Source of the DNA: Halomonas salipaludis
GTDB lineage: Bacteria; Pseudomonadota; Gammaproteobacteria; Pseudomonadales; Halomonadaceae
Assembly (NCBI RefSeq): GCF_002286975.1
Contig: NZ_NSKB01000016.1
Coordinates: 1-37,523, forward strand
DNA length: 37,523 nt
Reading direction: 5' to 3'
This document shows, piece by piece, positions 2,438 to 34,318 of the stretch. Numbering within the stretch: the stretch's first letter is position 1; each line of letters opens with the position of its first letter. The position numbers and the translations under genes were made by a program. Under the pieces are notes generated by a model. The model did not search any database. It saw nothing but the letters and a program-made list of their open reading frames with translations, and had not been told where the DNA came from.

Positions 2438-3484
2438 TTATTCATGGAGTATCCTTGGCAATGGGTGCTCACTGATTGCGCTCATGAATTCATTTAACGA
2501 GCTAGTTATGGCAGCGCCATCAAGACCTCGAGTTATAAAAATCAGATTCGAATCATTCTGGTCTTTCGGCCAGTCGTCAATATGCTCCGGCGGATGGATA
2601 GTATGTTGCACACCATGCAACACTACTGGCCTAGGGTCTCCATGCACATGGAGAACTCCCTTGACCCGGAGGATATTACGGCCGTGCCTGTTAAGAAGCA
2701 TTGAAAGCCAGATTCCAAAGCAGGTCCAGTCCACTGCTCCCTGAAAGCGAAGCCGAAAGGACTGCACTCCATGCAGGTGTTCATTCTCCGTCATCGTATA
2801 TTTGCGATGTTTCGGACCAAGCCAGCCTTGCACTTGTTCCGGCTTCCAGCACTTGATATGCGGCCCATCTTCAAATAATTCGCTGCTCGGCTGGGCCTGC
2901 GCGTCCGATCCCAGCAACACTGCGGTAGGATTGATGGCTTGCACCTGATAGGTTACTTCTTCGATCTGCGTATGCGTTGCCATTTCAGCTTTGCTCATCA
3001 CCAGCTTGTCAGCCGCTGCTACTTGCTCAGCCCATACAAAGTGGTCTTGCTGGCTTTGCTGGGCATTAATCGCATCCACGACTGTGACGGTGGCACCGGG
3101 TCGAATGTGGTAGCGTAACGTGGAGTCAGCAGTGATTGTGGAGGCGATCGGCCCCGGACTTGCTAATCCAGTGGTTTCTATAATGACCCTCTTAAATGGA
3201 GGAATTAGTCCTTCTTCGCGCTGGTACAGTAGGTCAAGCAGTGCCTCCGACAGCTCTCCACGGATTGTGCAACACACACAGCCACTTTTCAGGAGTACAA
3301 CATCTTCAGAAATTTTCCCGAGCAATAAATTGTCGAAACCGACTTCCCCGTACTCGTTGATTAATACCGCTGTGTCACCGTAGCTCTCAGATTCCAATAC
3401 CGCCTTGAGCAAGGTGGTTTTACCGCTACCAAGAAACCCGGAAATGACGTTCACCGGAAGAAGTCGCGAGGGTGAGTCACTCAT
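2438..3484 (-). CDS. COG0523 (CobW/CobP47K family) GTPase, putative metallochaperone
   Basis: A 348-residue G3E GTPase. The Walker A loop GFLGSGKTT is at residues 16-24. The metal-binding CxCC motif (CVCC) is at 69-72. NEYGEVGFD, the switch region, lies near 43-51, and the guanine-specificity motif is SKAEM rather than NKxD. A CobW_C-like domain fills roughly residues 230-340. COG0523 proteins bind GTP and deliver metal, often zinc, to client enzymes or act in metal homeostasis. It is the last gene of the leftward operon, and its ATG overlaps the stop of the upstream gene by four bases (atga), implying translational coupling. Since that operon encodes a CE4-type metal-dependent hydrolase, that enzyme is the likely client (inference). 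The left end abuts the IS1380 remnant. Confidence 0.88.
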   Translation of the reverse strand: MSDSPSRLLPVNVISGFLGSGKTTLLKAVLESESYGDTAVLINEYGEVGFDNLLLGKISEDVVLLKSGCVCCTIRGELSEALLDLLYQREEGLIPPFKRVIIETTGLASPGPIASTITADSTLRYHIRPGATVTVVDAINAQQSQQDHFVWAEQVAAADKLVMSKAEMATHTQIEEVTYQVQAINPTAVLLGSDAQAQPSSELFEDGPHIKCWKPEQVQGWLGPKHRKYTMTENEHLHGVQSFRLRFQGAVDWTCFGIWLSMLLNRHGRNILRVKGVLHVHGDPRPVVLHGVQHTIHPPEHIDDWPKDQNDSNLIFITRGLDGAAITSSLNEFMSAISEHPLPRILHE

Positions 3485-3837
3485 CTTGTCAGGCTCTGAA
3501 GGAAGCCCACATCCAAAGGATCAAATTTGCTATTTGTCATCACTTCAACCTGGTGCCAGACCCCACCCAGATCATGAACGATCTCATGCTTTCCGGTGGC
3601 GGTGGAAAGAATATAACTAGCTGACTGAAAATCCTCAATATGTGCAAGCCTTGAGGACAGCACCCGATTGATCAGCGCAATGCGGTATGCCCTTGCCCGA
3701 CGTCGTTCGTAATGAGCTGCTTCGGGATCCATAATCCCGATGGTCCAGTGATTCTCTCCTCCTAGGGCTCCGCATAGTCCGCACATGTGAATGTTTTCTC
3801 TGAATAGGGAATGATACGATGCCTGGGTCGCGGTCAT
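3481..3837 (-). CDS. Small conserved CGLCG-motif protein of unknown function
   Basis: The frame is 118 residues from the ATG at 3837, but a second ATG at 3786 starts exactly at MCGLCGALGGENHW and is at least as likely; neither has a strong ribosome site. The notable features are a CxxC pair at the second start, an HW shortly after, a charged ERRRARAYRIALINRVL helix, and a C-terminal part that reads as beta strands (SASYILSTATGKHEIVHDLGG). I recognise it only as a small protein that accompanies COG0523 GTPases, and I do not know its function. The cysteine pair and the four-base overlap with the GTPase gene suggest metal binding or a partner role (inference). Confidence 0.7.
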   Translation of the reverse strand: MTATQASYHSLFRENIHMCGLCGALGGENHWTIGIMDPEAAHYERRRARAYRIALINRVLSSRLAHIEDFQSASYILSTATGKHEIVHDLGGVWHQVEVMTNSKFDPLDVGFLQSLTR

Positions 3838-3878
3838 TACTAAGCATTGGCACCGCTTTTCGGCGACTGCCTGCTAGA

Positions 3879-4760
3879 CTAGACGCGTGGATGCCGCTTA
3901 GAAAAATCATCCGCAATCTCGTTGAAGGTGCAAAAATGTACGCCCTCATGACCAAGTATATGCTCAATCATCCGCTCCAGCATCATCAAAACCTGCGGCC
4001 GGCCAGATACGTCGGGATGGACCGTCATTGTAAATACAGCATAGTCGTTTTCGCGATAGACCCAATCAAACTGGTCCTGCCACATCTCCCCCAGATGCCT
4101 GGGACTGACGAAGCCATGGCTGTTGGGGGATTTTTTGATGAACAACATTGGCGGTAAGTCATCCAGATACCAGTTCGCCGGGATCTCGATAAGGTCCGTT
4201 TCCTCGCCACGTTGCAACGGCTTCATCCAATCTTTGGCCTTCTTGGAATAATCGATCTTCGTCCAAGAATCGCCAACACGTACATAGTACGGATGGAAAT
4301 CGTTGTGCATTAGGCTGTGATCGTACTTAATGCCACGCTCCAAGAGTAATTCATTGGTGATTGGACTGAATTCCCACCAAGGGGCTACATATCCTGTGGG
4401 TCGCTTGCCAGATAGTTTTGTTACCAGTTCAATGCTGTGGTCCAGCACTTCGCGTTCCTGCTCCCTAGTCATTGCAATGGGGTTTTCATGGCTATACCCA
4501 TGAACACCAATTTCGTGACCCGCGTCAGCGACAGCCTTCATCTGTTCTGGAAAAGTCTCGATGCTATGGCCGGGAATAAACCAAGTTGTCTTAAGGTTGT
4601 AGCGTTCAAAAAGTTTTAGTAGCCTGAGCGAACCGACCTCACCAGAGAACATGCCGCGCGAAATGTCATCCGGTGAATCCTCCCCGCCATAGGAACCTAG
4701 CCAACCAGCCACAGCATCCACGTCCACGCCGAAAGCAACAAAAATTTCCTTCTTTGACAT
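3879..4760 (-). CDS. CE4/NodB-fold metal-dependent hydrolase, resembles cyclic imide hydrolase (imidase)
   Basis: A 293-residue member of the polysaccharide deacetylase (NodB homology) superfamily. The metal site is recognisable as D13/D15 ([10 protein letters not shown]) with H87 and H91 (HGYSH). The strand [15 protein letters not shown], the APWWEFSP region and HPDVSGRPQ at the C-terminus fit the HpPgdA/imidase-like subgroup rather than secreted deacetylases. There is no signal peptide, so the protein is cytoplasmic. From memory, the imidase of Pseudomonas putida (EC 3.5.2.16, ring opening of succinimide or maleimide to half-amides) is also about 293 residues and closely similar; I could not check this. 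The TRAP importer and asparaginase in the operon fit amide/imide catabolism better than wall modification. Start supported by the site agaaggag, about 8 bp upstream. Confidence 0.8.
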
Positions 4761-4843
4761 TGTCGTATCTCCTTCTGATTATATTGGCGAGTAAACTCCA
4801 CGCCGTCTATTACATCTATATGGTTTCTTTTCCTCAAATAATC

Positions 4844-5764
4844 TCACTGACCAGCATGAGTAAGCCCGGAGACTCCTTCGAAAAGTGACACCCTGGGAGA
4901 CCACCCCCACTGGTCATGTGCACGGTCGATAGCCAGGGGAGCGGTCAAGTACTCTCTTTTTATCTCTTCATTGCAAAACGTGACCGATAGAGGCCCAATT
5001 GTTTTTCGCACGATTTCAGCGATTTCATCCATTCGCCATTCCGCTCCAGGTGCAACATTTGCAACGATTCGTCCAGGGCGCCTATCAAGCGTCGCCAGCT
5101 CTATTGCACGTACGACATCGTCAGAATGGATCAACTGTCGCTTCGACCAAGCATTTTCTTTAATAACCGTTTCGCTCTTACGTAGAGCACCTTCAACCAA
5201 TGCTCGCACCGGGCAATATGTCTTCCTATCAGGCCCATAAACATGGGCAATGCGCAATAAAGCAGCAGACATGCCGAACTGAGCCACGTAACTCGTGATC
5301 AACGCCTCACATGCAGCCTTGGTAGCACCATATACATTGGTCGGTACCAAGTCGCGATCTTCGTGCACAGGGCCCTGTTCCACTTCTCCATAGACCATAA
5401 TGGTTGAGCACTGTACGATTCTAGGAATATTATGGAGGCGCATTAATTCCAAAATATTAATTGTTCCAGAAATATTAATATCTGCAATTTCGTCAGGCCT
5501 ATCCTTCAGCACCATGGATCCCGAAACACCTCCACCATGTACGACAACATCAATGGGGGGGCTATCATTTAAGAAGGTTGAGAGCTGATGGATATCCCTC
5601 ACGTCCAAGACTTTCGTTTTAAGCCTCGTATGTATCAAATCACAAGGATGCACATCTATTCCTAACACAGTATGGCCAGAAGCAGCAAGTCTCATGGCCA
5701 AATTGCGACCAATCATGCCAGACACACCTGTTACAACAACATTTAGTAATTTTTTTTGGCTCAT
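4844..5764 (-). CDS. NAD(P)-dependent epimerase/dehydratase (extended SDR)
   Basis: A 306-residue extended short-chain dehydrogenase. The Rossmann signature GVSGMIG is at residues 13-19. The catalytic pair Y145 and K149 lies in YGATK, with S120/T121 upstream as the third catalytic position. The frame is open further upstream to 5821, but ATG at 5764 is chosen: it starts MSQKKLLNVVVTG, and sits two bases after the stop of the DctM gene, so translation is probably coupled. Family members oxidise or epimerise nucleotide-sugars or related hydroxy compounds; the substrate here cannot be read from sequence. Its place between a TRAP importer and an imidase-like hydrolase suggests a catabolic dehydrogenase rather than sugar-nucleotide synthesis. 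Confidence 0.82.
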   Translation of the reverse strand: MSQKKLLNVVVTGVSGMIGRNLAMRLAASGHTVLGIDVHPCDLIHTRLKTKVLDVRDIHQLSTFLNDSPPIDVVVHGGGVSGSMVLKDRPDEIADINISGTINILELMRLHNIPRIVQCSTIMVYGEVEQGPVHEDRDLVPTNVYGATKAACEALITSYVAQFGMSAALLRIAHVYGPDRKTYCPVRALVEGALRKSETVIKENAWSKRQLIHSDDVVRAIELATLDRRPGRIVANVAPGAEWRMDEIAEIVRKTIGPLSVTFCNEEIKREYLTAPLAIDRAHDQWGWSPRVSLFEGVSGLTHAGQ

Positions 5765-5766
5765 AT

Positions 5767-7047
5767 TTAAAACCCAAAGAGTCGTGGTAATGTTAAAACT
5801 AGCGCCGGCCAGAACATACAAATGGAAAGAAAACCGAACTGTATTATCACATACGGCCAGACGGCCGATACGATTTTCCCAATCGAAAGACGGGTTATAC
5901 CAGACATTACAAAGAGTAGCACGCCAATGGGAGGGGTAATGGAACCAATTACAATGTTGAGAACGAAAAGCAAAGCAAAGTGCAGAGGGTCCAGTCCATA
6001 CTCAATCGCCAATGGCGCGAAAAGGGGCACCAGCATTATGAAAGCGGCATTTGCCTCAATAAACATTCCCACACAGGCGAGAATAATCATAACGATAACC
6101 AGCATAAGATACTTATTATCAGTTACTGCACGCAACCATTCGGAAAGCGCTTGTGGAATGAGTTCAATAGTGAACAAGAAAGTAATTGTTGAAGCGAAAG
6201 CAATGAGCGCCCCGACTATCGATGTAGTTATTGCAGCACGAAGCAGAACCCCGGGAATATCTTTTATTTTCAACTCGCGGGTAACGGCGAAACCAATGAA
6301 TAATGCGTACAATACCGCAATTGCACTTCCCTCCGTTGCGGTAAACGCGCCACTAATGATACCGCCAACAACAATAATAGGCATCAAAACTATGATTAAG
6401 CCACGGCGCAACTCACGAAGAATTCTTTTTAGGCTTATAGGTTCGCCGGTAAACGGATAGCCGCGGCGCCATGCCACCCAAGAAACATAGCACATGAGAA
6501 TAAAAGCAAGTAGAATACCAGGTAATACTCCAGACAAAAATAATGCGCTGACAGACACCGAAGGTCCCGCCATGATGGCATAAACAATCATACCCGCACT
6601 CGGTGGAATAATAGGACCAAGGTTAGCCGAAGCTATCACAAGACCCGCGGCAAATTTTTTATCGTAAGCCTCAGAAAGACTCGGCACTAACGTGGATCCG
6701 AGGGCGCTTGCCGTTGCGATAGCAGTTCCAGAAACAGCCGATAACCCCATGGATGAAAGTATAGTGACATGTGCTAGACCGCCCCGCACACGTCCGATTA
6801 AACTATTGGCAAGGGATATGATACGTGCCATTGCTCCGCCGACAACCATGAGCTCGCCGGCCAAGATAAAGAAGGGAATCGCCATTAGTGGAAAGGAGTC
6901 CACGGCATAGAGCATGCGCTCTGGTAGAATGGATAGACTCATGTCCCCATACCAAAGCCCAGCGAGCGAAGCTACGCCAATGGCAAAAGCGAGAGGCATG
7001 CCAAGTAGCGCTAACAACACGAAAATTCCGATAGCGATCTCGATCAT
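5767..7047 (-). CDS. TRAP transporter large permease, DctM type
   Basis: A 426-residue, strongly hydrophobic protein with about 12 membrane segments. Family features include the GTAIATASALGSTLVPSL stretch, the NLGPIIPPSAGMIVYAIMAG loop and the repeated half-site GSITPPIGVLLFVMSG. DctM is the sodium-coupled transport subunit of tripartite ATP-independent periplasmic transporters. Its ATG overlaps the stop of the DctQ gene by four bases. The periplasmic binding protein and small permease are immediately upstream, so a complete importer is encoded. Confidence 0.93.
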   Translation of the reverse strand: MIEIAIGIFVLLALLGMPLAFAIGVASLAGLWYGDMSLSILPERMLYAVDSFPLMAIPFFILAGELMVVGGAMARIISLANSLIGRVRGGLAHVTILSSMGLSAVSGTAIATASALGSTLVPSLSEAYDKKFAAGLVIASANLGPIIPPSAGMIVYAIMAGPSVSVSALFLSGVLPGILLAFILMCYVSWVAWRRGYPFTGEPISLKRILRELRRGLIIVLMPIIVVGGIISGAFTATEGSAIAVLYALFIGFAVTRELKIKDIPGVLLRAAITTSIVGALIAFASTITFLFTIELIPQALSEWLRAVTDNKYLMLVIVMIILACVGMFIEANAAFIMLVPLFAPLAIEYGLDPLHFALLFVLNIVIGSITPPIGVLLFVMSGITRLSIGKIVSAVWPYVIIQFGFLSICMFWPALVLTLPRLFGF

Positions 7048-7625
7048 GATTTCATACTTTCCTTCACTTCTTCGACAAAGCTAGATGGCAACTCACCACC
7101 AAGGGCCAGGTCGAGACTTTGGGAAGCAAAATGCAAAGAGCAATGAAACCCTGCCCACAACAACGGAACATAGAACCATCCGCTACTCAAAGGTAGTGAC
7201 GATAGCGTTTGATTCCAAGTGGACATGGTTGCCCGTGTGCCGACGACAGTCACAACCATCATCAAGAAAATGCCAACGACATTCAATCCTATGATAAGCC
7301 CCCTTTGAAAAAGTGGAGGAAGAAGATTTTGCAAAATGTCTATCCCCACATGTCCTCTTATCTTGAGAGCCAAGGGAATGGCAAAGAAGATGAGCGCCAC
7401 GAAGCAAAGACGAGAAACCTCCCACGCCCAATCCAATGACGAATTAAAAATGTATCTCAAAACGACCTGTGTGGAAACAACCACAACAAGTGTCGCCATA
7501 AAAACGATAATCACAACAGACACTAACGCATCTATCCGACCAAGAAGTCGATTCAGAAAAACTCCTGCAGCATAAACTGCCGCAGGAGAATTTGTATCTT
7601 TGTGTTTATTCTTCAACGCCGACAT
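7044..7625 (-). CDS. TRAP transporter small permease, DctQ type
   Basis: Four hydrophobic segments are visible (VVIIVFMATLVVVVSTQVVL, the LCFVALIFFAIPLAL stretch, LIIGLNVVGIFLMMVVTVV and a C-terminal amphipathic segment), as expected for DctQ. The frame extends to 7673, but the ATG at 7625 (MSALKNKHKDTN) gives the normal length of 193 residues. It overlaps the end of the DctP gene by 20 bases, so the two are tightly coupled. DctQ sits with DctM in the inner membrane. Confidence 0.88.
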   Translation of the reverse strand: MSALKNKHKDTNSPAAVYAAGVFLNRLLGRIDALVSVVIIVFMATLVVVVSTQVVLRYIFNSSLDWAWEVSRLCFVALIFFAIPLALKIRGHVGIDILQNLLPPLFQRGLIIGLNVVGIFLMMVVTVVGTRATMSTWNQTLSSLPLSSGWFYVPLLWAGFHCSLHFASQSLDLALGGELPSSFVEEVKESMKS

Positions 7626-8604
7626 CCTCGAGAACCATATCGACCAAATCGGAACCAATGCGCTCACGCGCACTGTCGATGATACTACTGGTCATTTCAC
7701 GCATTTCATCACGCAGCTCATCCGAGATGGGCGTAAATGTCATACCTTCCTCAATGAGCGCTTCTCGAGCCGCCTCATTAGATTCCTTGTTGTAGCTGCG
7801 CTGCCATTCAATAGCCTCATCCATGGAGGTGCGAATTGCCTCCTGATACTCCGGATCCAAGTTTTCGAATGCATCTTTGTTTGCCAAGTACACCACATAA
7901 TCGTAAAAGTGCGCGGTATCGGAGAAATGATTCTGTACCTCTTGGAAACGATTCGTCAGGATGATGCTATATGGGTTTTCTTGCCCATCTACGACGCCTT
8001 GCTGAAGCGCTGAAAACAACTCAGCAATGTCGAGCGGCGTGGGATTGGCTCCAAGTGCGCGGAACGTGTTTAGATGCACCTCGTTGGGCTGCATGCGAAG
8101 ACTTAGGCCATCGAAATCTTCGATCGAATTCAATGCACGACGAGAGTTTGTCACATGTCGCGCCCCGAGGTCACCCCACCCCAAGGCGATGACGTCCCTC
8201 TCCTCGAACCGTTCGGACAAGATATCCCCAACAGGACCATCCACAAGTTCGAAAGCTCTTTCCTGGTCGGGCAGCATGAACGGAAGAGACAGTGCTTCTA
8301 TTTCCGGCACCACCCCCGTCCAAAACGATGGGCCCGACCAAGACATGAAAATGGAACCACGACGTACCTGATCCACCTGTTGTGAAGCCCCTCCCAACTG
8401 ATTGGATGGGAAGAGGTCAATACGTACTTCGCCATTCGTTTTTTCAGATACTGCGTCTCGAAATCTCTCCATTGCCAGACTGCTGGAGTGGTCGGGCTGA
8501 AAGCTCCCAGATGCCCTAAGCGTGACTTCCTGGGCAGAAGTTAACCCGCTAACTCCCAAACAACTCAGTGCAGCAGTCAATGTAGCATATTTAACCATTT
8601 TCAT
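7606..8604 (-). CDS. TRAP transporter substrate-binding protein, DctP type
   Basis: A 332-residue periplasmic binding protein. Residues 1-24 form a signal peptide ending TSA before QEV. Family features are LPFMLPDQERAFELVDGPVG, the GARHVTN turn, RMQPN (the arginine that grips a substrate carboxylate in DctP proteins lies here) and GVVDGQENPYS. The ribosome site gtgggag lies about 7 bp before the ATG. The conserved arginine argues for a carboxylate-bearing substrate, for instance an amidated or imidic acid; this is inference from the family. Confidence 0.93.
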   Translation of the reverse strand: MKMVKYATLTAALSCLGVSGLTSAQEVTLRASGSFQPDHSSSLAMERFRDAVSEKTNGEVRIDLFPSNQLGGASQQVDQVRRGSIFMSWSGPSFWTGVVPEIEALSLPFMLPDQERAFELVDGPVGDILSERFEERDVIALGWGDLGARHVTNSRRALNSIEDFDGLSLRMQPNEVHLNTFRALGANPTPLDIAELFSALQQGVVDGQENPYSIILTNRFQEVQNHFSDTAHFYDYVVYLANKDAFENLDPEYQEAIRTSMDEAIEWQRSYNKESNEAAREALIEEGMTFTPISDELRDEMREMTSSIIDSARERIGSDLVDMVLEDVGVEE

Positions 8605-8637
8605 AGAAATACTCCCACTTTAATTTGATCAAGTGAT

Positions 8638-9120
8638 CTATTGATTTTTAGAGTCTAGTATTTCGTGAACCTCTTGAACAGCCTTATTTAAGTAGCTGAT
8701 TTCATTTGGCATCCATTCTCTTGTATTTTTATTCTCATGTACCGAGATCCACCCCACCAATTCGTCATCTCGAATAAGGGGCCCTAGCATTTGTGCCTTG
8801 ACGCCATAAATCTCAATGAGTGCAATTGGCGGCGCTGGCGTGACGTCCAGGCAAGACGTCTGAACCAGAATCTCCCGGTGGCGCTCGAGCCATTCCACCG
8901 TTTCCAATTTCCGCTGATCCAAGGAAGTTTCTCCAGATAATGGATTAATGTTTTTCGCCAATGCCTCGCCCGCTGGATCATCAACATGAAAGGAAACTCT
9001 CGGCAAGTCGATACGAAGGGTAGTGCGGCTTGCCTTGGTCGCCTCAAGCAATTTTTCGAGGACATTATTAAAGGCTTCTACCAGCCTTTCACGCTCGTCA
9101 ATATGGTTAGCTTTATTCAT
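8638..9120 (-). CDS. Small stand-alone GAF-domain protein
   Basis: 160 residues, with one GAF-like domain over most of the length: LLEATKASRTTLRIDLP (strand 1), IALIEIYGVKAQMLGPLIRDDELVGWISVHE (central sheet) and a C-terminal helix LNKAVQEVHEIL. There is no output domain. GAF modules bind small molecules or dimerise. It lies first after the asparaginase in the operon, 33 bases before the DctP start. A role in sensing the operon substrate or in guarding the pathway is possible, but nothing in the sequence shows what it binds. Confidence 0.68.
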   Translation of the reverse strand: MNKANHIDERERLVEAFNNVLEKLLEATKASRTTLRIDLPRVSFHVDDPAGEALAKNINPLSGETSLDQRKLETVEWLERHREILVQTSCLDVTPAPPIALIEIYGVKAQMLGPLIRDDELVGWISVHENKNTREWMPNEISYLNKAVQEVHEILDSKNQ

Positions 9121-9224
9121 GATGTCCCAATATTTATGTAATTATGCATTGATGCCAAAAATTCTGACACTGAAGTTTTTAAAAATTCTCGACAGATCTA
9201 AAGTACTCAAAACATATCACTGCA

Positions 9225-10223
9225 TCAGGGTGGAGGTATCGTTTCTTCGAGCCTCGCGATTATGTCGACTTCACCCGTCGTGGAGAGCAGTACGGCTAGG
9301 GTCAAACGCGCCTTGCGAGCACTGAGATCACGTACCGCCAAGCATCCTCGCGCTTCTAGACTGACTAAGCTGCCCGGGAATTCGTAACGGGTATTGACGG
9401 GCCCTTCCGGACAGGACGACACCACCATCACCGTTAGGCCAGCCGCCACGGCGCGGTCAATGGCATCGAGCCAGGTCGGCGGCACATGCCCCCTGCCCAG
9501 TCCGTCGATGATCAGGCCTCTGGCCCCGCCAGCCACCACTGCGTCTACCAGATCGGGGCTGGCCCCCAGATACACCGCTAGAATGTCCACCCGTGGCAGC
9601 ACATCGCCCAGCGGCAACGAGGCCCCACATCGCGGCATCTGCGCCAAGTGCACACGATGGCCATCCACATAGCCCAGCGGCCCGTATCCCGGCGCGCCAA
9701 ACCCCTGCACCTGATAGCTGTTTAGCTTGCGAACGTGGCGCGCGGCATAAATCGATTCGTTGAACACCACCGTCACGCCGAGCCGCGCCATCACCGGTTC
9801 GGCGGCGGCGCTGATTGCACTTGCCAGATTGCGAAACGCATCACTACCCGCCTCATGGGGGGCACGCTGGGAGCCCGTGACCACCAGGGCGCAGTGATCA
9901 AGCGACAGAGTAATGTCTAGAAAGTGCGCGGTTTCCTCAAGAGTGTCGGTACCGTGAGTCACAACGATACCGTCGACATCGGGGTCAATCGCCAGGCGCT
10001 TGCATATGCGAGCCATCTCGACCAGATCCACTAGGTCGACCGCGTTGCTGGGCTTCTGCAGAATTGATCTGACCTCGACCGTCAACTGCTCATTTTCCGA
10101 GAAAGCAACACGCTCCAGCAGTGCCTCGCCGCTCATCGCGCCAGAAATGTTGAGGCCCGACGCGCTTGGCTCGCTGGCGATCGTGCCACCGGTGGTCAGC
10201 ACAACGACGTGTCGCTTGGTCAT
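9225..10223 (-). CDS. Asparaginase-family amidohydrolase
   Basis: A 332-residue member of the asparaginase/glutaminase superfamily. Both threonine motifs are present: TTGGTIAS at 10-17 (nucleophile region) and VVTHGTDTLEETA at 88-99 with T92-D93. No signal peptide is seen, so it is probably cytoplasmic. The third conserved region, usually TGAMR followed by SADGP-NL, reads TGSQRAPHEAGSDAFRNL and is clearly different, which may reflect a substrate other than asparagine. It is the first gene of the leftward operon. A half-amide such as succinamate, the product expected from an imidase, is one candidate substrate (inference). It faces a divergent FadR-type regulator across about 250 bp. Confidence 0.87.
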   Translation of the reverse strand: MTKRHVVVLTTGGTIASEPSASGLNISGAMSGEALLERVAFSENEQLTVEVRSILQKPSNAVDLVDLVEMARICKRLAIDPDVDGIVVTHGTDTLEETAHFLDITLSLDHCALVVTGSQRAPHEAGSDAFRNLASAISAAAEPVMARLGVTVVFNESIYAARHVRKLNSYQVQGFGAPGYGPLGYVDGHRVHLAQMPRCGASLPLGDVLPRVDILAVYLGASPDLVDAVVAGGARGLIIDGLGRGHVPPTWLDAIDRAVAAGLTVMVVSSCPEGPVNTRYEFPGSLVSLEARGCLAVRDLSARKARLTLAVLLSTTGEVDIIARLEETIPPP

Positions 10224-10473: not shown

Positions 10474-11211
10474 ATGAGGACCAAGCCACAACCGGCTGTC
10501 ACCCCAATGGAACCGACCCGCTTTGGCGGCTCTATGGAGCGCAGCTCCATCGCCTTTCAGATACTCGAGCGTATCAAGACCGCCCTGATCCGCGGACAAT
10601 TAAAGCCTGGCGACTATCTGCCCTCCGAGACCGAGCTCACCCAGAGCCTGGGTATCGGCAAGTCGAGCGTGCGGGAAGCCATAAAGATGCTACAGGCGAT
10701 CGGCATTGTAGAAGTACGCCGCGGCCAGGGAACCATCATCCGCCGCGAACCCGGCACGCCGCTGGTCGACCCCATGGCGTTCGGGATGATCCTGGCCCGC
10801 GGGATGACGCGCGACGTCCTTGAATTTCGCCAGATGTTCGAGCCCGCCTACACCCTCCAGGCCATGGCCAATGCCACCCCTGAGGATCACGCCAGCATTC
10901 GTCACGCTATCACTGCCTTGGCAGCAGCCATCGCCAACGGCGAGCAGACCTCGCGACACGATGTCTCTTTCCACCGTGCCGTGCTGCGGGCTACGCACAA
11001 TCCGATGACAATTCGTGTCGGGGAAACCTTGATCGAGCTGATTGAAGCAGCCCTTGAGACCTCAATGCAGACACTGCCGGAAACAGCCCTGAAAGATCAT
11101 CAAGCAATTTATGCCGCCTTCCAGGCAGGGGATACCAACGGCGTGCTTGCCGCCATCGAAGAAAGCAGCAAAAGCTGGGAAACCAACCTCACGTATCCCG
11201 ATGATCCGTGA
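10474..11211 (+). CDS. GntR-family transcriptional regulator, FadR subfamily (FCD domain)
   Basis: 245 residues from the chosen ATG at 10474. The frame is open back to 10318, but the upstream part is low in secondary structure and unlike the family; ATG at 10507 is a further option and none has a good ribosome site. The winged helix occupies the first third (AFQILERIKTALIRGQLKPGDYLPSE, then the recognition helix GKSSVREAIKMLQAIGIVEVRRGQGT). An FCD all-helical effector domain follows, with the metal-binding pattern of D..., H in FHRAVL and KDHQAIYAAF. It is transcribed away from the asparaginase gene and is most likely the local regulator of that operon, released by a carboxylic acid ligand (family knowledge plus position). 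Confidence 0.85.
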   Translation: MRTKPQPAVTPMEPTRFGGSMERSSIAFQILERIKTALIRGQLKPGDYLPSETELTQSLGIGKSSVREAIKMLQAIGIVEVRRGQGTIIRREPGTPLVDPMAFGMILARGMTRDVLEFRQMFEPAYTLQAMANATPEDHASIRHAITALAAAIANGEQTSRHDVSFHRAVLRATHNPMTIRVGETLIELIEAALETSMQTLPETALKDHQAIYAAFQAGDTNGVLAAIEESSKSWETNLTYPDDP

Positions 11212-11457: not shown

Positions 11458-11973
11458 TCACCACAAACGTCTGCTCACGGATACCGCCGTTGCCATGTGC
11501 GAGAGGGGAAGCTTCTTGGCCATCCGATTGGCCAACTTGGCCAGGGTGCGCGTCGGTGCGATCCCCACGCTGACCGGGATATGCGTGAAGCGACGGACCT
11601 TGGTAAACAGCTCTTGGGCATGGACATGCATCTGATCCGGGGAAAAGCCATCGAAGCGCACGAACATCTCATCAATGGAATATGGCTCGACCCCGGCAGA
11701 GAACTCCTCCAGCACCCGCTGCACCTGTGACGACATGTCGCCATACAGCTCGTAGTTGGACGACAGCAGCACGATGCGATGCTGACGCAGCAGCTGCTTC
11801 AACTCGAAGGCGGGCGTGCCCATCTCCACCCCCAGGGCCTTGAGCTCGTTGGAACGGGCAATCACGCAGCCATCGTTATTGGAAAGGACGCCGACCGGCA
11901 CACCATCGAGATCCGGCCGGAACGCCCGCTCGCAGCTCACGTAAAAATTGTTGCAGTCGATCAGCCCAATCAC
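11458..11973 (-). pseudogene. umuC: UmuC, truncated (N-terminal 163 or so residues of DNA polymerase V catalytic subunit)
   Basis: The frame encodes 171 residues where UmuC normally has about 420. The palm and active-site parts are present: the first acidic residue in MIGLIDCNNFYVSCERAF, then VLSNNDGCVIARSNE, SSNYELYGDMS and the catalytic YSIDE. Similarity stops at about MAKKLP; the last residues (SHMATAVSVSRRLW) look unlike UmuC and end at a stop. Thumb, little finger and clamp-binding parts are gone, so no polymerase is expected. It starts 15 bp after the umuD stop, preserving operon order. Confidence 0.88.
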
Positions 11974-11988
11974 TCGGAGGCTCCCTGG

Positions 11989-12429
11989 CTACACCGGATA
12001 CTCGTGGATCACCGCACGGACCACGCCCCAGGCCTGGCACTCCAGGTCGGCAGCGGGGATAGGACGGTAGCGGGGATTACCCGAGGTGAGGTAAGGCCGG
12101 TTGCCTAGCAGCTCGTAACGCTTGACCACCAGCTCCCCCTCCACCGTCGCGACGAGGATATGCCCGGGCCGTGGGTCTATCGAGCTGTCCACCACCAGCA
12201 GATCCCCCTCCTGGATCCCCAGCGCCTCCATGCTGTCGCCGGTCACCGTCATGAAAAAGGTCGAGGCCGACCGCTTCACCAGCCGCTCATTGAGGTCCAG
12301 GGTTCGGCCTTCATAGTCTTGAGCCGGGCTCGGGAAGCCCGACAGGCCTGCGCGGGTCAGCTGTAGCGGAAAAGGTAATGGCAGCCACGGCGGCTCGCGA
12401 TGGGCCGGGATCAGTTTGTCATGTGCCAT
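11989..12429 (-). CDS. umuD: UmuD, LexA-like self-cleaving SOS mutagenesis protein
   Basis: 146 residues. The peptidase S24 catalytic pair is S66 (TGDSM) and K103 (VVKRYELL), 37 residues apart as in E. coli UmuD (60 and 97). The cleavage site lies in the LSG-FPSPA segment around residues 30-31, in line with the C-G site before FPSPA in E. coli. RecA-stimulated cleavage gives UmuD', the partner of UmuC in polymerase V. The start has an excellent ribosome site (aaggagg, about 5 bp upstream). The gene itself looks intact, but its partner umuC is truncated and its operator is split by an insertion sequence 28 bp upstream. Confidence 0.92.
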   Translation of the reverse strand: MAHDKLIPAHREPPWLPLPFPLQLTRAGLSGFPSPAQDYEGRTLDLNERLVKRSASTFFMTVTGDSMEALGIQEGDLLVVDSSIDPRPGHILVATVEGELVVKRYELLGNRPYLTSGNPRYRPIPAADLECQAWGVVRAVIHEYPV

Positions 12430-12443
12430 GGAGGCCTCCTTGA

Positions 12444-12457
12444 TACTAGATATGCAT
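12444..12457 (-). promoter_or_regulatory. Half of a LexA box left next to umuD
   Basis: tactagatatgcat here and acagta at 13500-13505 become contiguous if the IS1595 element and one copy of its 8-bp target duplication are removed. The joined 20-mer matches the E. coli LexA consensus (TACTGT-(AT)4-ACAGTA) at 16 of 20 positions, with the right-hand CAG intact and TAG in place of CTG on the other side. It would sit just upstream of the umuD ribosome site, the normal place for an SOS operator. Confidence 0.7.
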
Positions 12458-13491
12458 GGCTATGTTGGTATCTGTTGTTGGTTACCGCCGATCGCCGCAC
12501 GGAGCCACGCTTCCTCGGCTGGCTTGGCGGTTTCAAACAGTCGCCGCCATGCCAGGTAATTCGGTAAATACGCTGTTCCCACCCCATGAAAGCGTCCCAT
12601 CCAGCCCTTTAATCGGCTGATATAGCTGTTGACGTTCTGAATGTGGTATTCCTTGCCAATCACTCGCTGGTTATCGAGTGTGATCAGTCGGTGATGGGCA
12701 ATCCCATGCTCAGCAGAGAAGGTCTTATACCAGCTGTGCCCGTCCGAACATAAAATCGAATCCCGATCGATGATCGGTGCCAGAAAGTCGTGGACAGTAG
12801 CCTTCTGAAGCATCGAATCCACCAGATCACTGACGTGGCCGTTGCGATCACGCACGATAACGACTGAAATTTTATCCGCTTTTTTCTTCCTATTGCTCTG
12901 TCCGCCACGCTTCCGAGGCTTGCGGTGCGTGAGGTAGCGTTTTCCCTTGCAGGACTCCGCAAAGAAGGTCTCGTCTACCTCGATAATGCCGGACAAGGCA
13001 TTGACGTTGGCACGGGCACTCTCTCGCAGGAAGCGATGACGCCAACGGAAGGCTGTCTTTAAATCGATACCCACTCGGGCTGCCGAGACGCGTAATGTCA
13101 GGCTGTCTCGCATGCAGCGCAGGTAGTTAAACCATTTGTCACGGTGGTGCAGCTTGGCCAGGGGCGTTCCAGTAAGGCCATTGAACGTCTTGCGACACGC
13201 AGGATTCCGGCACCGATACCGCGGCAAACCACCGGCACGCCCCCATTTGACAGGATGCTCATTGCCGCAGTGGGGACATGGAGGGTGAGATCTTGACGTC
13301 TCAATCAGGGTGTCCGCTTGGGCGTTGATTTGCCCAATCAGCTGATTGGAAAAGTACTTTTTGAGATCGACGGGGAGGCGAACCAGTATCTGCTCGAGAG
13401 ATTTGAGGTCTGCACGCTTCATGGTGTACTCCAGGGGAAACTGGATATACAGTATTTTGGAAGCACGCCAACAGCAGATACCAACATAGCG
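12458..13491. mobile_element. IS1595-family insertion sequence, complete, 1034 bp
   Basis: The terminal inverted repeats are gctatgttggtatctgttg at 12459 onward and its near-complement ending at 13490 (one mismatch in about 23 bp). The element is flanked by a perfect 8-bp target duplication atatgcat at 12450-12457 and 13492-13499, the size expected for IS1595. One intact transposase gene fills it and its stop codon lies inside the left inverted repeat. The clean duplication indicates a fairly recent insertion. Confidence 0.93.
12460..13422 (-). CDS. IS1595-family (ISXO2-like) transposase
   Basis: 320 residues from the ATG at 13422 (MKRADLKSLEQ); the frame is open upstream to 13530 but that extension would run out through the inverted repeat. 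An N-terminal zinc ribbon is visible (CPHCGNEHPVKW, then CRNPACRKTF), followed by a helix-turn-helix-like part (RVSAARVGIDLKTAFRWRHRFL). The ISXO2-like DDE/N domain has GIIEVDETFF for the first acid and SDGHSWY for the second, with HIQNVNSYISRLKGWMGRFHGV near the end. Transcription runs toward umuD, so readthrough could drive umuD. Confidence 0.92.
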   Translation of the reverse strand: MKRADLKSLEQILVRLPVDLKKYFSNQLIGQINAQADTLIETSRSHPPCPHCGNEHPVKWGRAGGLPRYRCRNPACRKTFNGLTGTPLAKLHHRDKWFNYLRCMRDSLTLRVSAARVGIDLKTAFRWRHRFLRESARANVNALSGIIEVDETFFAESCKGKRYLTHRKPRKRGGQSNRKKKADKISVVIVRDRNGHVSDLVDSMLQKATVHDFLAPIIDRDSILCSDGHSWYKTFSAEHGIAHHRLITLDNQRVIGKEYHIQNVNSYISRLKGWMGRFHGVGTAYLPNYLAWRRLFETAKPAEEAWLRAAIGGNQQQIPT

Positions 13492-13505
13492 ATATGCATA
13501 CAGTA
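13492..13505 (-). promoter_or_regulatory. Other half of the split LexA box
   Basis: atatgcatacagta repeats the 8-bp duplication and carries the acagta half of the operator now stranded on the far side of the insertion sequence. The base next to it is the end of the element, so the opposite half-site is lost. From here to 13705 I see no gene and no other signal; the stretch is the former upstream region of umuD. Confidence 0.6.
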
Positions 13506-13705
13506 TCGGGGATGAAAAATACCTTGCCAAGAGCTCGCGGGAAGATGCGGCTCGGTATGCAGAGGCATGCTATGAGGCCTTTAGACGTATTTGATGATTT
13601 CTGTATTTCTTCAACAGCCTTTCGTCGTGGAGACGGCTGCCTTTCAGTCCAGTAGCGTCCCTTATCTCGTTCGCTATAGAGTGACTCTTTCTCTTTTTTA
13701 CGATT

Positions 13706-28484: not shown

Positions 28485-29180
28485 GTGAATACAGAGACTA
28501 TCCTAGTGAAAGAAGGTAACAGATTGGTCAAACGGGCCTATCGCTGCGCGAAGCAGGCGATCCTATGCGGAAAATACGGTCCTGGAGAGGCGCTTTTCGA
28601 AAGCCATCTAGCCACCGACCTTGGGATGAGTCGAACGCCTGTTCGTGAAGCCCTTCAGCTGCTCGCTCGTGAGGGATTCGTTGAAGCTAATCCGGCACGT
28701 GGATATCTCGTTCCGCGATTCACAGCCGAAGATATGCGTGAGCTTTTTGAAGTACGAGAGAGCCTTGAGGGTATGGCAACACGCGCAGCTGCCTTATATG
28801 CATCAAATGCTGAGATTGAGAAACTTGAGCGGATATGCGATGAGTATGAAGCGGCTAAAAATGATGTAGACACTTGGACAAAATTAGGAGCTGAGTTTCA
28901 TAGCAGGATTATTGACGCCTCTAGGAATCGACGCCTTGCCATTATTCTGGATTCACTCAAAGACCAGATTATGTTGTGTCGGCGGTCGTCTTTTCAAGGT
29001 GGTCAATATCGACGCGATGACGCGTTGCGAGAGCATCTTGCAATCCTGAATGCCATCAAATCGGGTGACGGTGATGCAGCTGAACAACATGCACGCATTC
29101 ATGTGCGTCACTCGCATGAAGCCGCATTACGTTCATTCAGTCGGCACTTTGATCCTAGTTCTTTACAAAAAAACCCCTGA
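28485..29180 (+). CDS. GntR-family regulator with FCD domain
   Basis: 231 residues from GTG at 28485; there is no good ribosome site and no other start before residue 48. Winged helix: YRCAKQAILCGKYGPGEALFESHLATDLGMSRTP, recognition helix VREALQLLAREGFVEANPARGYLV. The FCD domain follows, with the metal-site residues in EFHSRIIDAS and the HARIHVRHSHE helix. It precedes and runs in the same direction as the catabolic genes, 18 bp before the FAD oxidoreductase, and is the likely controller of them. Its ligand is probably a sugar acid or hydroxy acid, by analogy with the family. Confidence 0.88.
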   Translation: MNTETILVKEGNRLVKRAYRCAKQAILCGKYGPGEALFESHLATDLGMSRTPVREALQLLAREGFVEANPARGYLVPRFTAEDMRELFEVRESLEGMATRAAALYASNAEIEKLERICDEYEAAKNDVDTWTKLGAEFHSRIIDASRNRRLAIILDSLKDQIMLCRRSSFQGGQYRRDDALREHLAILNAIKSGDGDAAEQHARIHVRHSHEAALRSFSRHFDPSSLQKNP

Positions 29181-29198
29181 TTTTTGAGGAGATAGACA

Positions 29199-30647
29199 AT
29201 GGTCGAGCCAACTTCAATTCAGCTTGATAAGGGGCACATCGTTGAAGCTGCCCGGAACACACCGGTCGTTCGTAACGTCGAAGTACTAGTGTGCGGGGGT
29301 GGTGTATCCGGCGTTGGTGCTGCGCTCGGTGCGGCACGTGCCGGGGCTAAAACGATGGTACTTGAGCGAAACGCATTTCTCGGCGGCGCCGCCACTGCGG
29401 TGATCATGAACACTTGGAACGTGCCAGTAACACGCATGACGGGTGTGGCCAAGGAAATCGCCATCACTCTCGCCGAACGCGGAGCCGGCAATATAAAGGG
29501 ACCGACATTTCCTTTTGACCCGGAAGCTCTAAAGGAACTCTCCGCTGAGTTGCTCAAAGACGCCGGTGTTGAGGTACTGAATTACAGTTGGGTGGTTGAC
29601 TCTATCATGGAAGGCAATCGCATCAAGGGTGTGATCATCCAGAACAAGTCCGGCCGGCAGGCAATTCTAGCGAAAACCGTCGTTGATGCTACGGGTGATG
29701 CCGATATCGCAGCCGCCGCCGGCGCTGAGTACGTGCTGGGACGCGAAGAGGACAACAAGATGCGGCCCATGAGTGTGCTCTTCCGAATGGGGGGGGTAGA
29801 CCTGGAAAAGGCAGTCGAATACTGTCGTAGCCAGCCCAAAGAGAATTTCACAGCTGACCCTAACTTCCATATTCTTGATCTTGATAAGGGCCTGGTGCGT
29901 ATGTCCGGCTTCTTCGATATTGTCGATCGAGCGCGCGCCTCAGGCGAATTAGCTGACGAGATTCACTACCTTCGGTTCGAAGGTATCAGCGTTGAACGTG
30001 GTATTGTAACGGTGAATAATTCACGTGTTTACGGTGTAGATGGTACCAACGCGTGGGATATCTCCCGCGCCGATACCGAAGCGCGCCTGCAGAACCGTAA
30101 GCTTTATAAAGTAATCAAGGAAAACATCCCGGGCTTCGAGAACGCATTTGTTATCGATTCTTCTCCAACCGTTGGAGTGCGCGAGACGCGCCGGGTACGT
30201 GGCCCGTATATACTGCCGCAAGAAGACCTTATTGCCCAAAGTACATACCCGGACTCGGTGGTGCGGATATGGCGGCATATGAAGGCTGGCATCGACTGGC
30301 ATAAAGCGGACGGCGGCGAAGGTGCACCCACCGACCCCGTATATAGAACAGCTACTACTGACTTGACTTGGTTCGAGATTCCTTGGGGCGTCTTCACGCC
30401 AAACAACGTCGAGGGTATGACGGTCAGCGGACGTGCGCTATCAGTGACACATGACGCCGACATGTGGACCCGAGGCCAGTACTGCTGCCTAGTCACGGGG
30501 CAGATCGCGGGGATATCGGCAGCACTGGCAGCGGAGAACGAACTCTCACCATCAGCATTGGACGTTGGTGACCTACAGCGCATGCTCTTTGAGCACGGCA
30601 TCGATATCGGTGAAGTGAGCCAGCGCCTAGAGCTCGAGAATACCTGA
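29199..30647 (+). CDS. FAD-dependent oxidoreductase (PF12831-type)
   Basis: 482 residues with gaggagatag 6 bp before the ATG. FAD-binding Rossmann motif GGGVSG at 33-38 and the GAKTMVLERNAFLGGAAT acidic strand end around 49-66. The conserved DATGDADIAAAAGAE segment lies near 165-180. The C-terminal signature WFEIPWGVFTPNNVEGMTVSGRALS and GQIAGISAALAA close the FAD domain. PF12831 enzymes are soluble flavin dehydrogenases of varied, often unknown, substrates. The operon suggests oxidation of a hydroxy acid or polyol before or after the UxaA-type dehydration. Confidence 0.88.
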   Translation: MVEPTSIQLDKGHIVEAARNTPVVRNVEVLVCGGGVSGVGAALGAARAGAKTMVLERNAFLGGAATAVIMNTWNVPVTRMTGVAKEIAITLAERGAGNIKGPTFPFDPEALKELSAELLKDAGVEVLNYSWVVDSIMEGNRIKGVIIQNKSGRQAILAKTVVDATGDADIAAAAGAEYVLGREEDNKMRPMSVLFRMGGVDLEKAVEYCRSQPKENFTADPNFHILDLDKGLVRMSGFFDIVDRARASGELADEIHYLRFEGISVERGIVTVNNSRVYGVDGTNAWDISRADTEARLQNRKLYKVIKENIPGFENAFVIDSSPTVGVRETRRVRGPYILPQEDLIAQSTYPDSVVRIWRHMKAGIDWHKADGGEGAPTDPVYRTATTDLTWFEIPWGVFTPNNVEGMTVSGRALSVTHDADMWTRGQYCCLVTGQIAGISAALAAENELSPSALDVGDLQRMLFEHGIDIGEVSQRLELENT

Positions 30648-30716
30648 AATCCTAGAGGGAACGCGAAGGCGAAAGTTGTCTCGTGATCTAATGTTTTTTA
30701 AAAGTTGGAAAGCCAT

Positions 30717-32273
30717 ATGCCTACACCTTTTCGTAATGAGGGTAAGCTGCAAACTGTGCAGCCCTTTATCCGTCTACATCCTGATGATAATGTTATTATC
30801 GCTCGTTCAGATATCATTTCGGGCGCAGTACTTTCACTTCCAGAAGCATCATTCGAAACCAGAGACCTGATTCCGTCCGGCCACAAGGTCGCAGCAAGCT
30901 CAATCAATAAGGGAGCACCGGTACGAAGATACGGGCAAATTATCGGTTTTGCATCACAGGATATTAGCGCTGGCGAACATGTGCACGGTCACAATCTCGA
31001 TATGGGTGAGTTTACCCGGGAATATGACTTCTGTGCTGATGTGAATCCGGTCGAATATGTGAGTAAAGCTGCGACTTTCCGCGGCATTGTCCGGCCTGAT
31101 GGGCGTGTGGCTACACGCAACTATATCGGCGTACTGACCACAGTAAACTGCTCAGCCACAGTTGCTCGTGGGATTGCGCAGCACTTCACTTCTGAGTTAT
31201 TGCGTGACGTGCCGAATGTCGACGGAGTGGTGGCCCTAACCCACGGATTGGGCTGCTGTATGGACACGGGCGGCGAAGGCATGCGGGTACTTCAGCGCAC
31301 CGTGGCAGGCTATGCTCGGCATGTTAACTTTTCAGGTATTCTTGTCGTCGGATTGGGTTGTGAAGCAAATCAGATTTCGACACTATTTGAGGCACAGTCG
31401 CTCTCTGAGACTTGTCAGGTGCGTTCGCTAATTATTCAGAATACTGGCGGCACATCGAAGACAATCGACAAAGGAATTGGTATCGTCAAGGATATGCTGG
31501 TGCACGCTAATAATGTAGATCGCCAGCCTGTCCCGGCAAGCCATCTTGTGCTAGGCCTTGAATGTGGCGGCTCGGACGGATACTCAGGTATTAGTGCGAA
31601 CCCAGCATTGGGGGTCGCAGTAGACCTACTGGTTCGCCATGGTGGGACTGCTGTGCTTGCTGAAACACCCGAGGTTTACGGTGCTGAGCACCTGCTAACC
31701 CGCCGTGCTGTATCCCAGTCGGTGGGAGAGAAGCTGATTGAGCGCATTAGGTGGTGGGAGGATTATACCAACCGGAACCGTGGCGAGATGAACAATAATC
31801 CCACTCCTGGCAACAAGGCAGGAGGCCTAACGACCATTCTCGAAAAATCTTTGGGTGCAGTGGCGAAGAGCGGAACCACACCTTTGGTAGAAGTTTACGA
31901 ATACGCAGAAAATATCACTGCAAAAGGGTTTGTTTTCATGGACACGCCAGGCTATGACCCAGTCTCTGTCACTGGGATGGTGTCGGGCGGAGCTAACATA
32001 GTCTGCTTCACCACGGGTCGTGGTTCGGCATATGGCTGCGCTCCATCACCGTCTCTTAAATTGTCTACCAACTCTGAACTCTGGGAGCGGCAGGAAGAAG
32101 ATATAGACATCAACTGCGGTACCATTCTGGACGGTAAAGAGACAGTCGATGAAGCCGGGCGCAGGATATTCGAGACAATTCTTCGCATTGCTTCGGGGGA
32201 GAAAACGAAATCTGAATTGCACGGTTATGGGCAAAACGAGTTCGTTCCATGGTCCATTGGCGCTGTGATGTAG
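30717..32273 (+). CDS. UxaA-family dehydratase (altronate/galactarate type), SAF plus C-terminal domain
   Basis: 518 residues. ATG at 30717 has ggaaag six bases upstream. The N-terminal SAF-like part covers about residues 1-110 (NVIIARSDIISGAVL... ). The UxaA domain begins IVRPDGRVATRNYIGVLTTVNCSA and contains LTHGLGCCMDTGGEGM, VVGLGCEANQIS, GLECGGSDGYSGISANPALG and GTTPLVEVYEYAENITAKG. Family members dehydrate sugar acids or related hydroxy acids (altronate, galactarate, sulfolactate) with an iron-dependent site. Both halves are fused in one gene, as in single-chain UxaA/GarD. Substrate not determined. Confidence 0.88.
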   Translation: MPTPFRNEGKLQTVQPFIRLHPDDNVIIARSDIISGAVLSLPEASFETRDLIPSGHKVAASSINKGAPVRRYGQIIGFASQDISAGEHVHGHNLDMGEFTREYDFCADVNPVEYVSKAATFRGIVRPDGRVATRNYIGVLTTVNCSATVARGIAQHFTSELLRDVPNVDGVVALTHGLGCCMDTGGEGMRVLQRTVAGYARHVNFSGILVVGLGCEANQISTLFEAQSLSETCQVRSLIIQNTGGTSKTIDKGIGIVKDMLVHANNVDRQPVPASHLVLGLECGGSDGYSGISANPALGVAVDLLVRHGGTAVLAETPEVYGAEHLLTRRAVSQSVGEKLIERIRWWEDYTNRNRGEMNNNPTPGNKAGGLTTILEKSLGAVAKSGTTPLVEVYEYAENITAKGFVFMDTPGYDPVSVTGMVSGGANIVCFTTGRGSAYGCAPSPSLKLSTNSELWERQEEDIDINCGTILDGKETVDEAGRRIFETILRIASGEKTKSELHGYGQNEFVPWSIGAVM

Positions 32274-32370
32274 AAAAATTGATGAGTCGTCCATAAAAAA
32301 GCGCTGATTCTTAATTTTATTAAAAATAAAATGTAAAGAAACATGCTGAGCTTTCAGCGAGGAGAGATGC

Positions 32371-34272: not shown

Positions 34273-34318
34273 CTCGACATTACATGTTTAACTTATATTT
34301 TATTTAAAGGGTGAGACC

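Follow-up and report, generated by a model that had tools for sequence, protein, structure and literature searches.

A Halomonas salipaludis plasmid operon that joins a candidate cyclic imide-opening CE4 hydrolase to a conserved CxxC-COG0523 protein pair

The 37,523-base contig NZ_NSKB01000016.1 of Halomonas salipaludis (RefSeq assembly GCF_002286975.1), analysed here over its whole length and hereafter called the window, carries a row of nine open reading frames (ORFs), all on the minus strand and running from position 10223 down to 2438. At the centre of this study is a trio within that row, comprising genes for a CE4-family hydrolase, a small CxxC protein and a COG0523 GTPase. The window spans the contig from end to end, and the 249 bases at its start recur unchanged at its end, so we take it as a closed plasmid of ~37.3 kb. 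It also encodes Rep3, KfrA, a product with a weak MobA-type relaxase match (26 bits versus a cut-off of 24.6) and, by eye, a ParA-like ORF, in agreement with a preliminary description, made from the letters alone, that had called the operon plasmid-borne. Families were assigned with Pfam and NCBIfam, and Pfam agrees with those first proposed for the nine codirectional genes. Together with the divergent regulator gene at their head, they are:

10474..11211, plus strand: GntR/FCD transcription factor (PF00392, PF07729), divergent from the asparaginase gene
9225..10223, minus strand: asparaginase-type amidohydrolase (Ans; PF00710, PF17763; G+C 0.618), proposed half-amide hydrolase, a head gene as in another TRAP operon
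8638..9120, minus strand: GAF-domain protein (PF01590)
7606..8604, minus strand: DctP, solute-binding protein of a tripartite ATP-independent periplasmic (TRAP) transporter (PF03480), with solved relatives
7044..7616, minus strand: DctQ, TRAP small permease (PF04290), predicted start TTG at 7616
5767..7047, minus strand: DctM, TRAP large permease (PF06808)
4844..5764, minus strand: extended short-chain dehydrogenase/reductase (SDR) of the epimerase/dehydrogenase type (PF01370, Epimerase)
3879..4760, minus strand: CE4-family hydrolase close to HpPgdA (Polysacc_deac_1; 78% identical to PDB 3qbu), proposed cyclic imide hydrolase
3481..3786, minus strand: CxxC protein with the N-terminus MCxxCGxxGGxxHW (no Pfam or NCBIfam family), proposed metal carrier or adaptor
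2438..3484, minus strand: COG0523 (CobW-type) GTPase (PF02492, cobW; PF07683, CobW_C; Walker A and CxCC motifs), proposed metallochaperone

With DctP, DctQ and DctM all recognised by Pfam, the TRAP transporter is complete in the window. Overlaps join DctP to DctQ (11 nt), DctQ to DctM (4 nt) and CxxC to COG0523 (4 nt), the first of them supposing that DctQ starts at the TTG at 7616, as it probably does judging from the sequence. The overlaps noted in the preliminary description are thus real at these three junctions, whereas the others have gaps (Ans-GAF 104, GAF-DctP 33, DctM-SDR 2, SDR-CE4 83 and CE4-CxxC 92 nt). The CxxC gene, formerly given a start at 3837, begins instead at 3786 (MCGLCG...), since all 80 relatives from the scan described below have an ATG at the matching MCxxC.

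To see how the trio is distributed, genome contigs were searched with an alignment of the CxxC protein and the best 80 of 154 relatives were kept, the gene content of the loci being determined by tblastn (L numbers denote neighbourhood stretches; L106 is host C12:438000-457999 and L147 lies on host contig C1). A COG0523 gene comes after the CxxC gene in 80 of 80 loci. The CE4 gene is in the fetched stretch in 78 and no more than 600 bases upstream in 72, the two loci without it being a 3.7-kb contig (L015) and a 20-kb stretch (L024). Since this set had been selected via the CxxC protein itself, a sample of 398 Pseudomonadota genomes was added. HP0310-like CE4, named after the Helicobacter pylori protein and called at a self-set threshold of E ≤ 1e-90, is present in ten of these genomes; the CxxC protein (E ≤ 1e-6, up to 12 candidates scored per genome) is also present in ten, and they are the same ten. 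They hold 11 CE4-CxxC pairs, separated by 23 to 3,166 bases, and the co-occurrence has a Fisher P of 4e-20, a value that ignores relatedness (seven genera). A CobW gene lies within 0.8 kb of CxxC in nine of the nine loci from genomes other than the host's and is present in both of the host's own. The trio was likewise found in the stretch in 12 of 14 plasmid loci (CE4 identity ~65% or more), which were hand-picked, not random, from 81 records at E ≤ 1e-70; the exceptions are L126 and L152, the latter a stretch that stops at the end of its record. Because CE4 and CxxC occupy the same ten of 398 genomes and COG0523 is near CxxC in nine of nine loci, CE4-CxxC-COG0523 is a conserved module, with exceptions, and the trio picked out in the preliminary description proves to be a set of near-constant companions.

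The nearest relatives of the window's trio are in Halomonas, Modicisalibacter, Salinisphaera and Marinobacterium loci (CE4 87-91%, CxxC 56-69% and CobW 55-64% identity). Two haloarchaeal CE4 relatives, L155 (51%) and L156 (39%), had no trio within 8 kb. Mirror-tree correlations among CE4, CobW and CxxC are high (r 0.81-0.91), and we do not use them as evidence because linked genes share history. The enzyme families of the operon are already known, and in a limited literature search no publication turned up that describes the trio as a module including the CxxC family. Some of this association may have been recognised as early as 2011, given that a supplementary figure of Shaik et al. sets the genomic neighbourhoods of HP0310 and HP0312 side by side (PMC3084791; here and below, statements from cited papers refer to the accessible parts of those papers).

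Residues and motifs were compared in an alignment of 98 sequences, window included, drawn from loci in which all three members are well covered; nine of 107 loci, including those without the trio, fall outside it, and some of the sequences are not independent, L029 and L121 apparently being one and the same locus. Walker A and CxCC occur in the COG0523 proteins of all 98, the window's member having a CobW_C domain as well. The CxxC protein keeps C2, C5, W14, R32, D52, T64, G65, W77, D89 and P90 in 81 of 81 sequences and H13 in 80 (window included in both counts), and it has no family match in Pfam or NCBIfam. Its AlphaFold2 model has a mean pLDDT of 83, with low confidence at the N-terminus that holds both cysteines, and a fold search gave no matches at E ≤ 0.001. 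CE4 is the only enzyme of the three expected to use a catalytic metal, and by elimination we infer that it is the client of the CxxC-COG0523 pair.

The CE4 enzyme itself is identical to H. pylori HP0310 (HpPgdA; PDB 3qbu, 4ly4) at 225 of 290 aligned positions (78%) and has the same metal ligands. The match to 3qbu scores 541 bits, followed by 3rxz (126), 1z7a (74) and the PuuE structure 3cl6 (71), while no other protein in the PDB list with the name peptidoglycan deacetylase exceeds 43 bits. By analogy with 3qbu, the window's enzyme would bind metal through D15, H87 and H91 and use D13 and H248 in the active site; in 3qbu numbering, D14, H86, H90, D12, H247, Y23, W127, W196 and L201 are kept in 98 of 98 sequences. 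A CE4 homologue on a Rouxiella plasmid (L152:7998-8879), 73% identical, has a glycine in place of the active-site aspartate at position 13 and no trio in its stretch. In its solved structure HP0310 is tetrameric, binds a buried metal (assumed to be zinc) through D14, H86 and H90, and has no polysaccharide groove; the protein was inactive on N-acetylglucosamine (GlcNAc), chitotriose, several acetylated amines, acetyl dipeptides and allantoin, from which a small-molecule substrate was deduced and its identity left open (PMC3084791).

A candidate for that substrate comes from the nicotinate catabolism of Aspergillus nidulans. HpPgdA is the closest known structural homologue named for the cyclic imidase HxnM, which is proposed, from the metabolites of deletion strains, to hydrolyse 3-hydroxypiperidine-2,6-dione and which is 64% identical to a Pseudomonas putida imidase homologue (PMC9304392). 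The link between CE4 and HxnM is taken from that paper. With its closeness to HpPgdA and all metal and active-site residues in place, the window's protein fits the resemblance to cyclic imide hydrolases that had been suggested for it.

Gene context adds to this picture. In most of the annotated loci that we opened, the trio's neighbours are importers, dehydrogenases and amide hydrolases. An amidase-type match is found anywhere in 58 of the 80 scanned loci; in 57 an AS amidase shares the strand of CxxC and is at most 5 kb away from it. Five further loci have an asparaginase close to CE4, the trio being present in three of them (L036, L130, L153) and not in the other two (L126, L155); in Thioclava (L130) the asparaginase occupies the slot held by an amidase in rhizobia. 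In L124 the gene that immediately follows COG0523 is of isochorismatase type, and some kb upstream, beyond opposite-strand genes, there are genes for an amidase and a nitrilase-type protein. That amide hydrolases of unrelated families replace one another beside a single ring-opening enzyme is, to us, the best contextual evidence for the hydrolysis of an imide and then of a half-amide. Importers differ from locus to locus (ABC, MFS, NCS1 and TctA, with TRAP in the window), and several loci have two classical SDRs; two SDRs, a CE4 enzyme and an amidase together recall HxnW-HxnM-HxnN. As for the window's remaining genes, a 36% homologue of its SDR is present in the CE4 locus L124, and its GAF protein shares 44% identity with the GAF domain at the C-terminus of a fusion protein that resembles arylmalonate decarboxylase / Asp-Glu racemase and is encoded close to a CE4 trio (L054:6337-7563).

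The same neighbourhoods leave some room for a substrate other than an imide, namely a different small cyclic amide or ureide such as a lactam, hydantoin or dihydropyrimidine. Hydantoinase A/B occurs in L038, PxpA in L010, and an NCS1 permease of the cytosine/purine/uracil/allantoin type heads one locus; the top NCBIfam match of CE4 is the PuuE allantoinase, an assignment we rejected because its 94.8 bits fall far below the cut-off of 424.6. HP0310 was inactive on allantoin (PMC3084791), and HxnM, the closest relative named whose function has been studied, has an imide as its assigned substrate (PMC9304392), so that we regard this alternative as rather unlikely.

Four observations stand somewhat apart. 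A solute-binding protein (SBP) homologue of at least 45% identity, missing in the window, comes after COG0523 in 51 of the 80 scanned loci, even where an ABC permease was not found; examples are L009:7612-8844, L010:7568-8782, L011:3467-4660 and L106 from ~13553, and in the four sequences looked at no signal peptide was evident. The host has, on C12 (L106), a second and complete standard cluster with GntR, amidase, CE4 (80% identical), MFS, two SDRs, CxxC, COG0523 and the SBP-like gene. In L123, CE4-CxxC-CobW lies beside genes for an NMT1/THI5-type binding protein, an amidohydrolase and DAO, and ThiG- and ThiE-like genes. A Roseovarius plasmid (L127) carries TRAP, molybdenum hydroxylase, asparaginase and amidohydrolase genes in one row, by a ParB-like gene.

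The head of the window's operon has a different affinity. Its asparaginase has the TGGTIA and HGTDT motifs and both asparaginase domains (PF00710 and PF17763), and it scores below the NCBIfam cut-offs (asnASE_II 156.7 versus 314.3 bits, asnASE_I 134.9 versus 260.5). The altered third motif pointed out in the preliminary description is present; it also occurs, in one alignment, in the best solved match, the L-asparaginase 8h4d, so it is not unique to this protein, and we dropped the idea that it signals new chemistry. Asparaginases of this kind (E ≤ 1e-60) are found in 17 of 151 family genomes, the host included, with 17 matches besides the window's own at 52-66% identity. Six of the 17 loci were fetched, and in all six a divergent GntR gene is followed by Ans, DctP, DctQ and DctM, with an amidase further on. 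Relative to the window, GntR is 77-82% and Ans 56-65% identical, DctP only 27-30%. One of the six is on the host's contig C1 (L147); next in that row come genes for an M20 peptidase, a RidA-type protein and an amidase. G+C content is 0.596 in GntR and 0.618 in Ans and lies between 0.446 and 0.509 in the other eight genes, with a step from Ans to GAF (0.462).

Given the likeness of GntR and Ans, the low DctP identity and the G+C step, the window's operon looks chimeric; its GntR-Ans head probably derives from such an Ans-TRAP operon, the junction with a body of lower G+C then falling between 9225 and 9120. The trio loci nearest to the window's (Halomonas and kin) have MFS, two SDRs and an amidase in place of its TRAP-SDR-GAF set, the source of which was not found in our genome and plasmid searches. 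Relatives of the SDR occurred only in the host's own genome among 369 class genomes (E ≤ 1e-45, up to six candidates scored per genome) and among 151 family genomes (E ≤ 1e-50), with no plasmid record at 1e-40. GAF relatives (E ≤ 1e-15) were likewise confined to the host among 293 genomes of the order, with no plasmid record at 1e-5. Both this confinement and the resemblance of the head to a different TRAP operon led us to abandon the view of a single co-evolved nine-gene operon, and with it the one co-evolved pathway first proposed.

It is therefore less certain in this operon that the asparaginase hydrolyses the half-amide, as had been suggested; an amide hydrolase is often in the gene row, and sometimes it is an asparaginase, which is the part of the suggestion that holds. 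We consider it quite possible, if somewhat short of an even chance, that the enzyme is a passenger from the donor operon with no part in the pathway, and that any half-amide is handled elsewhere, for instance by amidases encoded in the host's C1 or C12 locus. This would accord with the six Ans-TRAP loci, with the G+C step and with a pair of promoter-like sites in the Ans-GAF interval (9129-9170); a scan that yields 12 sites in the region against 8.9 ± 2.5 expected is, however, not evidence. In the other direction, the presence of asparaginases near CE4 in five other loci makes the pairing functionally sensible.

Taken together, we lean slightly towards reading the nine genes as a plasmid catabolic operon with a metal-helped, imide-opening CE4 core, set behind a TRAP importer and joined to a GntR-asparaginase pair. 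The transporter would probably import an anionic small molecule; several solved relatives of the window's DctP bind sugar-type acids. The extended SDR may oxidise a precursor. The CxxC and COG0523 proteins together would load or guard the metal of CE4, an enzyme without an evident signal peptide (by eye) and probably cytosolic. The metallated enzyme would then open a small cyclic imide, or a close analogue, to a half-amide, which the asparaginase may hydrolyse to a dicarboxylate and ammonia. The order of these steps is itself a proposal.

Several observations weigh against this reading. HP0310 was reported to be active on p-nitrophenyl acetate (pNP-acetate), acetylated xylan and chitin, and was concluded to be a deacetylase/acetylesterase (PMC3688963); a mutant in its gene had altered peptidoglycan acetylation (cited in PMC3084791). 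Some loci have no catabolic context, L025 for example adjoining MlaD/PqiA-type genes. Crystallised HP0310 that had been produced in Escherichia coli had a metal ion bound (PMC3084791), and a chaperone of its own is thus not strictly needed. A Helicobacter cetorum table gives HP0309, HP0311 and HP0312 as absent from that species and, in its accessible part, does not name HP0310 (PMC3866246); HP0310 may therefore live there without the helpers. On a plasmid of Rhizobium ACO-34A (L126), an intact CE4 gene has no CxxC or CobW gene nearby, while another plasmid of that strain carries the full trio (L151). Conversely, L024 has CxxC-COG0523 with SBP-like and amidase genes and no CE4 in its 20-kb stretch. 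Finally, the window's asparaginase is only 31-37% identical to the CE4-linked asparaginases and resembles those of the other operon.

The activities reported for HP0310 and the neighbours of L025 would suit an N-acetyl deacetylase, of peptidoglycan or of another substrate, in an operon for cell-wall or sugar modification, as would the PgdA annotation of the nearest characterised homologue, the D-Ala-D-Ala peptidase genes that Shaik et al. noted near some HP0310 homologues (PMC3084791) and the capsule-type genes adjoining L130. We nevertheless hold such a role to be improbable. CE4 is without an evident signal peptide, most annotated loci opened have the catabolic neighbours described above, and HP0310 was inactive on GlcNAc and chitotriose and has no groove (PMC3084791). 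A grouping of CE4 with peptidoglycan deacetylases therefore exists in name, through "PgdA", and not in substance, the scores being 541 versus at most 43 bits. An ordinary peptidoglycan deacetylase was rejected as the principal interpretation because of this low similarity to other such enzymes and the usually catabolic gene context.

A second alternative concerns the helpers, which might have a general metal role, such as zinc homeostasis, or a client other than CE4. COG0523 clients are mostly unknown and zinc-linked subgroups exist (PMC2770081, PMC9164220), and L024 has the pair with no CE4 nearby. The restriction of CE4 and CxxC to the same ten of 398 genomes, together with the position of CE4 as the only one of the three expected to be a metal-using enzyme, makes this unlikely.

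Returning to the imide-opening interpretation, a more far-reaching version of it is possible and is advanced tentatively, with more doubt than confidence. In it, CxxC and COG0523 would act as a pair devoted to inserting metal into a CE4 cyclic imidase, an undescribed class of COG0523 client, the system being carried on many Proteobacteria plasmids; HP0310 would be this same enzyme, set in a form of the module that comprises HP0309-HP0312, with a small imide as its substrate. The module is likely present in H. pylori, where HP0309, HP0311 and HP0312 are neighbours of HP0310, HP0312 has been named as a COG0523 member (PMC2770081) and HP0309 is annotated as an N-carbamoyl-D-amino acid amidohydrolase (PMC3866246).

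Among known systems, the 3-hydroxyglutarimide branch of A. nidulans nicotinate catabolism, HxnW-HxnM-HxnN, is comparable in that dehydrogenase, cyclic imidase and amide hydrolase act in series, as proposed for the window, HxnM coming after the dehydrogenase HxnW and before the amidase HxnN (PMC9304392); the window differs in its TRAP importer, extended SDR and asparaginase fold. Rhizobial and enterobacterial clusters (L009, L012 and L128, with L010 and L011 in part) have the same trio, importer and dehydrogenases. An amidase is present in L009, L010, L012 and L128, whereas the window is without an amidase, a classical SDR pair or a cytosolic binding-protein homologue and, unlike these clusters, has TRAP, GAF, extended SDR and asparaginase genes. 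Fe-type nitrile hydratase with its COG0523 activator Nha3 is likewise a metalloenzyme for nitrogen compounds with a COG0523 GTPase of its own (PMC9164220). Its client and metal differ from the window's. We know of no CxxC protein of the window's family in that system.

The clients of many COG0523 GTPases are unknown (PMC9164220). Co-occurrence singles out one candidate client, plus a partner family without an entry in the Pfam copy used, and metal transfer is therefore testable with three purified proteins. The proposal also offers a concrete substrate class for HP0310, open since its structure (PMC3084791), and points to a way in which a plasmid may have put together a catabolic operon out of two TRAP operons.

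Elsewhere on the plasmid, the Rep-KfrA region is 91% identical, over 41% of the query, to part of a Halomonas sp. Y3 plasmid. By eye, UmuD/UmuC-like genes at 11458-13530, of which the UmuC-like ORF is short, adjoin a transposase-like ORF. A second catabolic set at 28485-35323 encodes a GntR/FCD regulator, an FAD oxidoreductase, a D-galactarate/altronate dehydratase, a TRAP permease and an NMT1-like binding protein.

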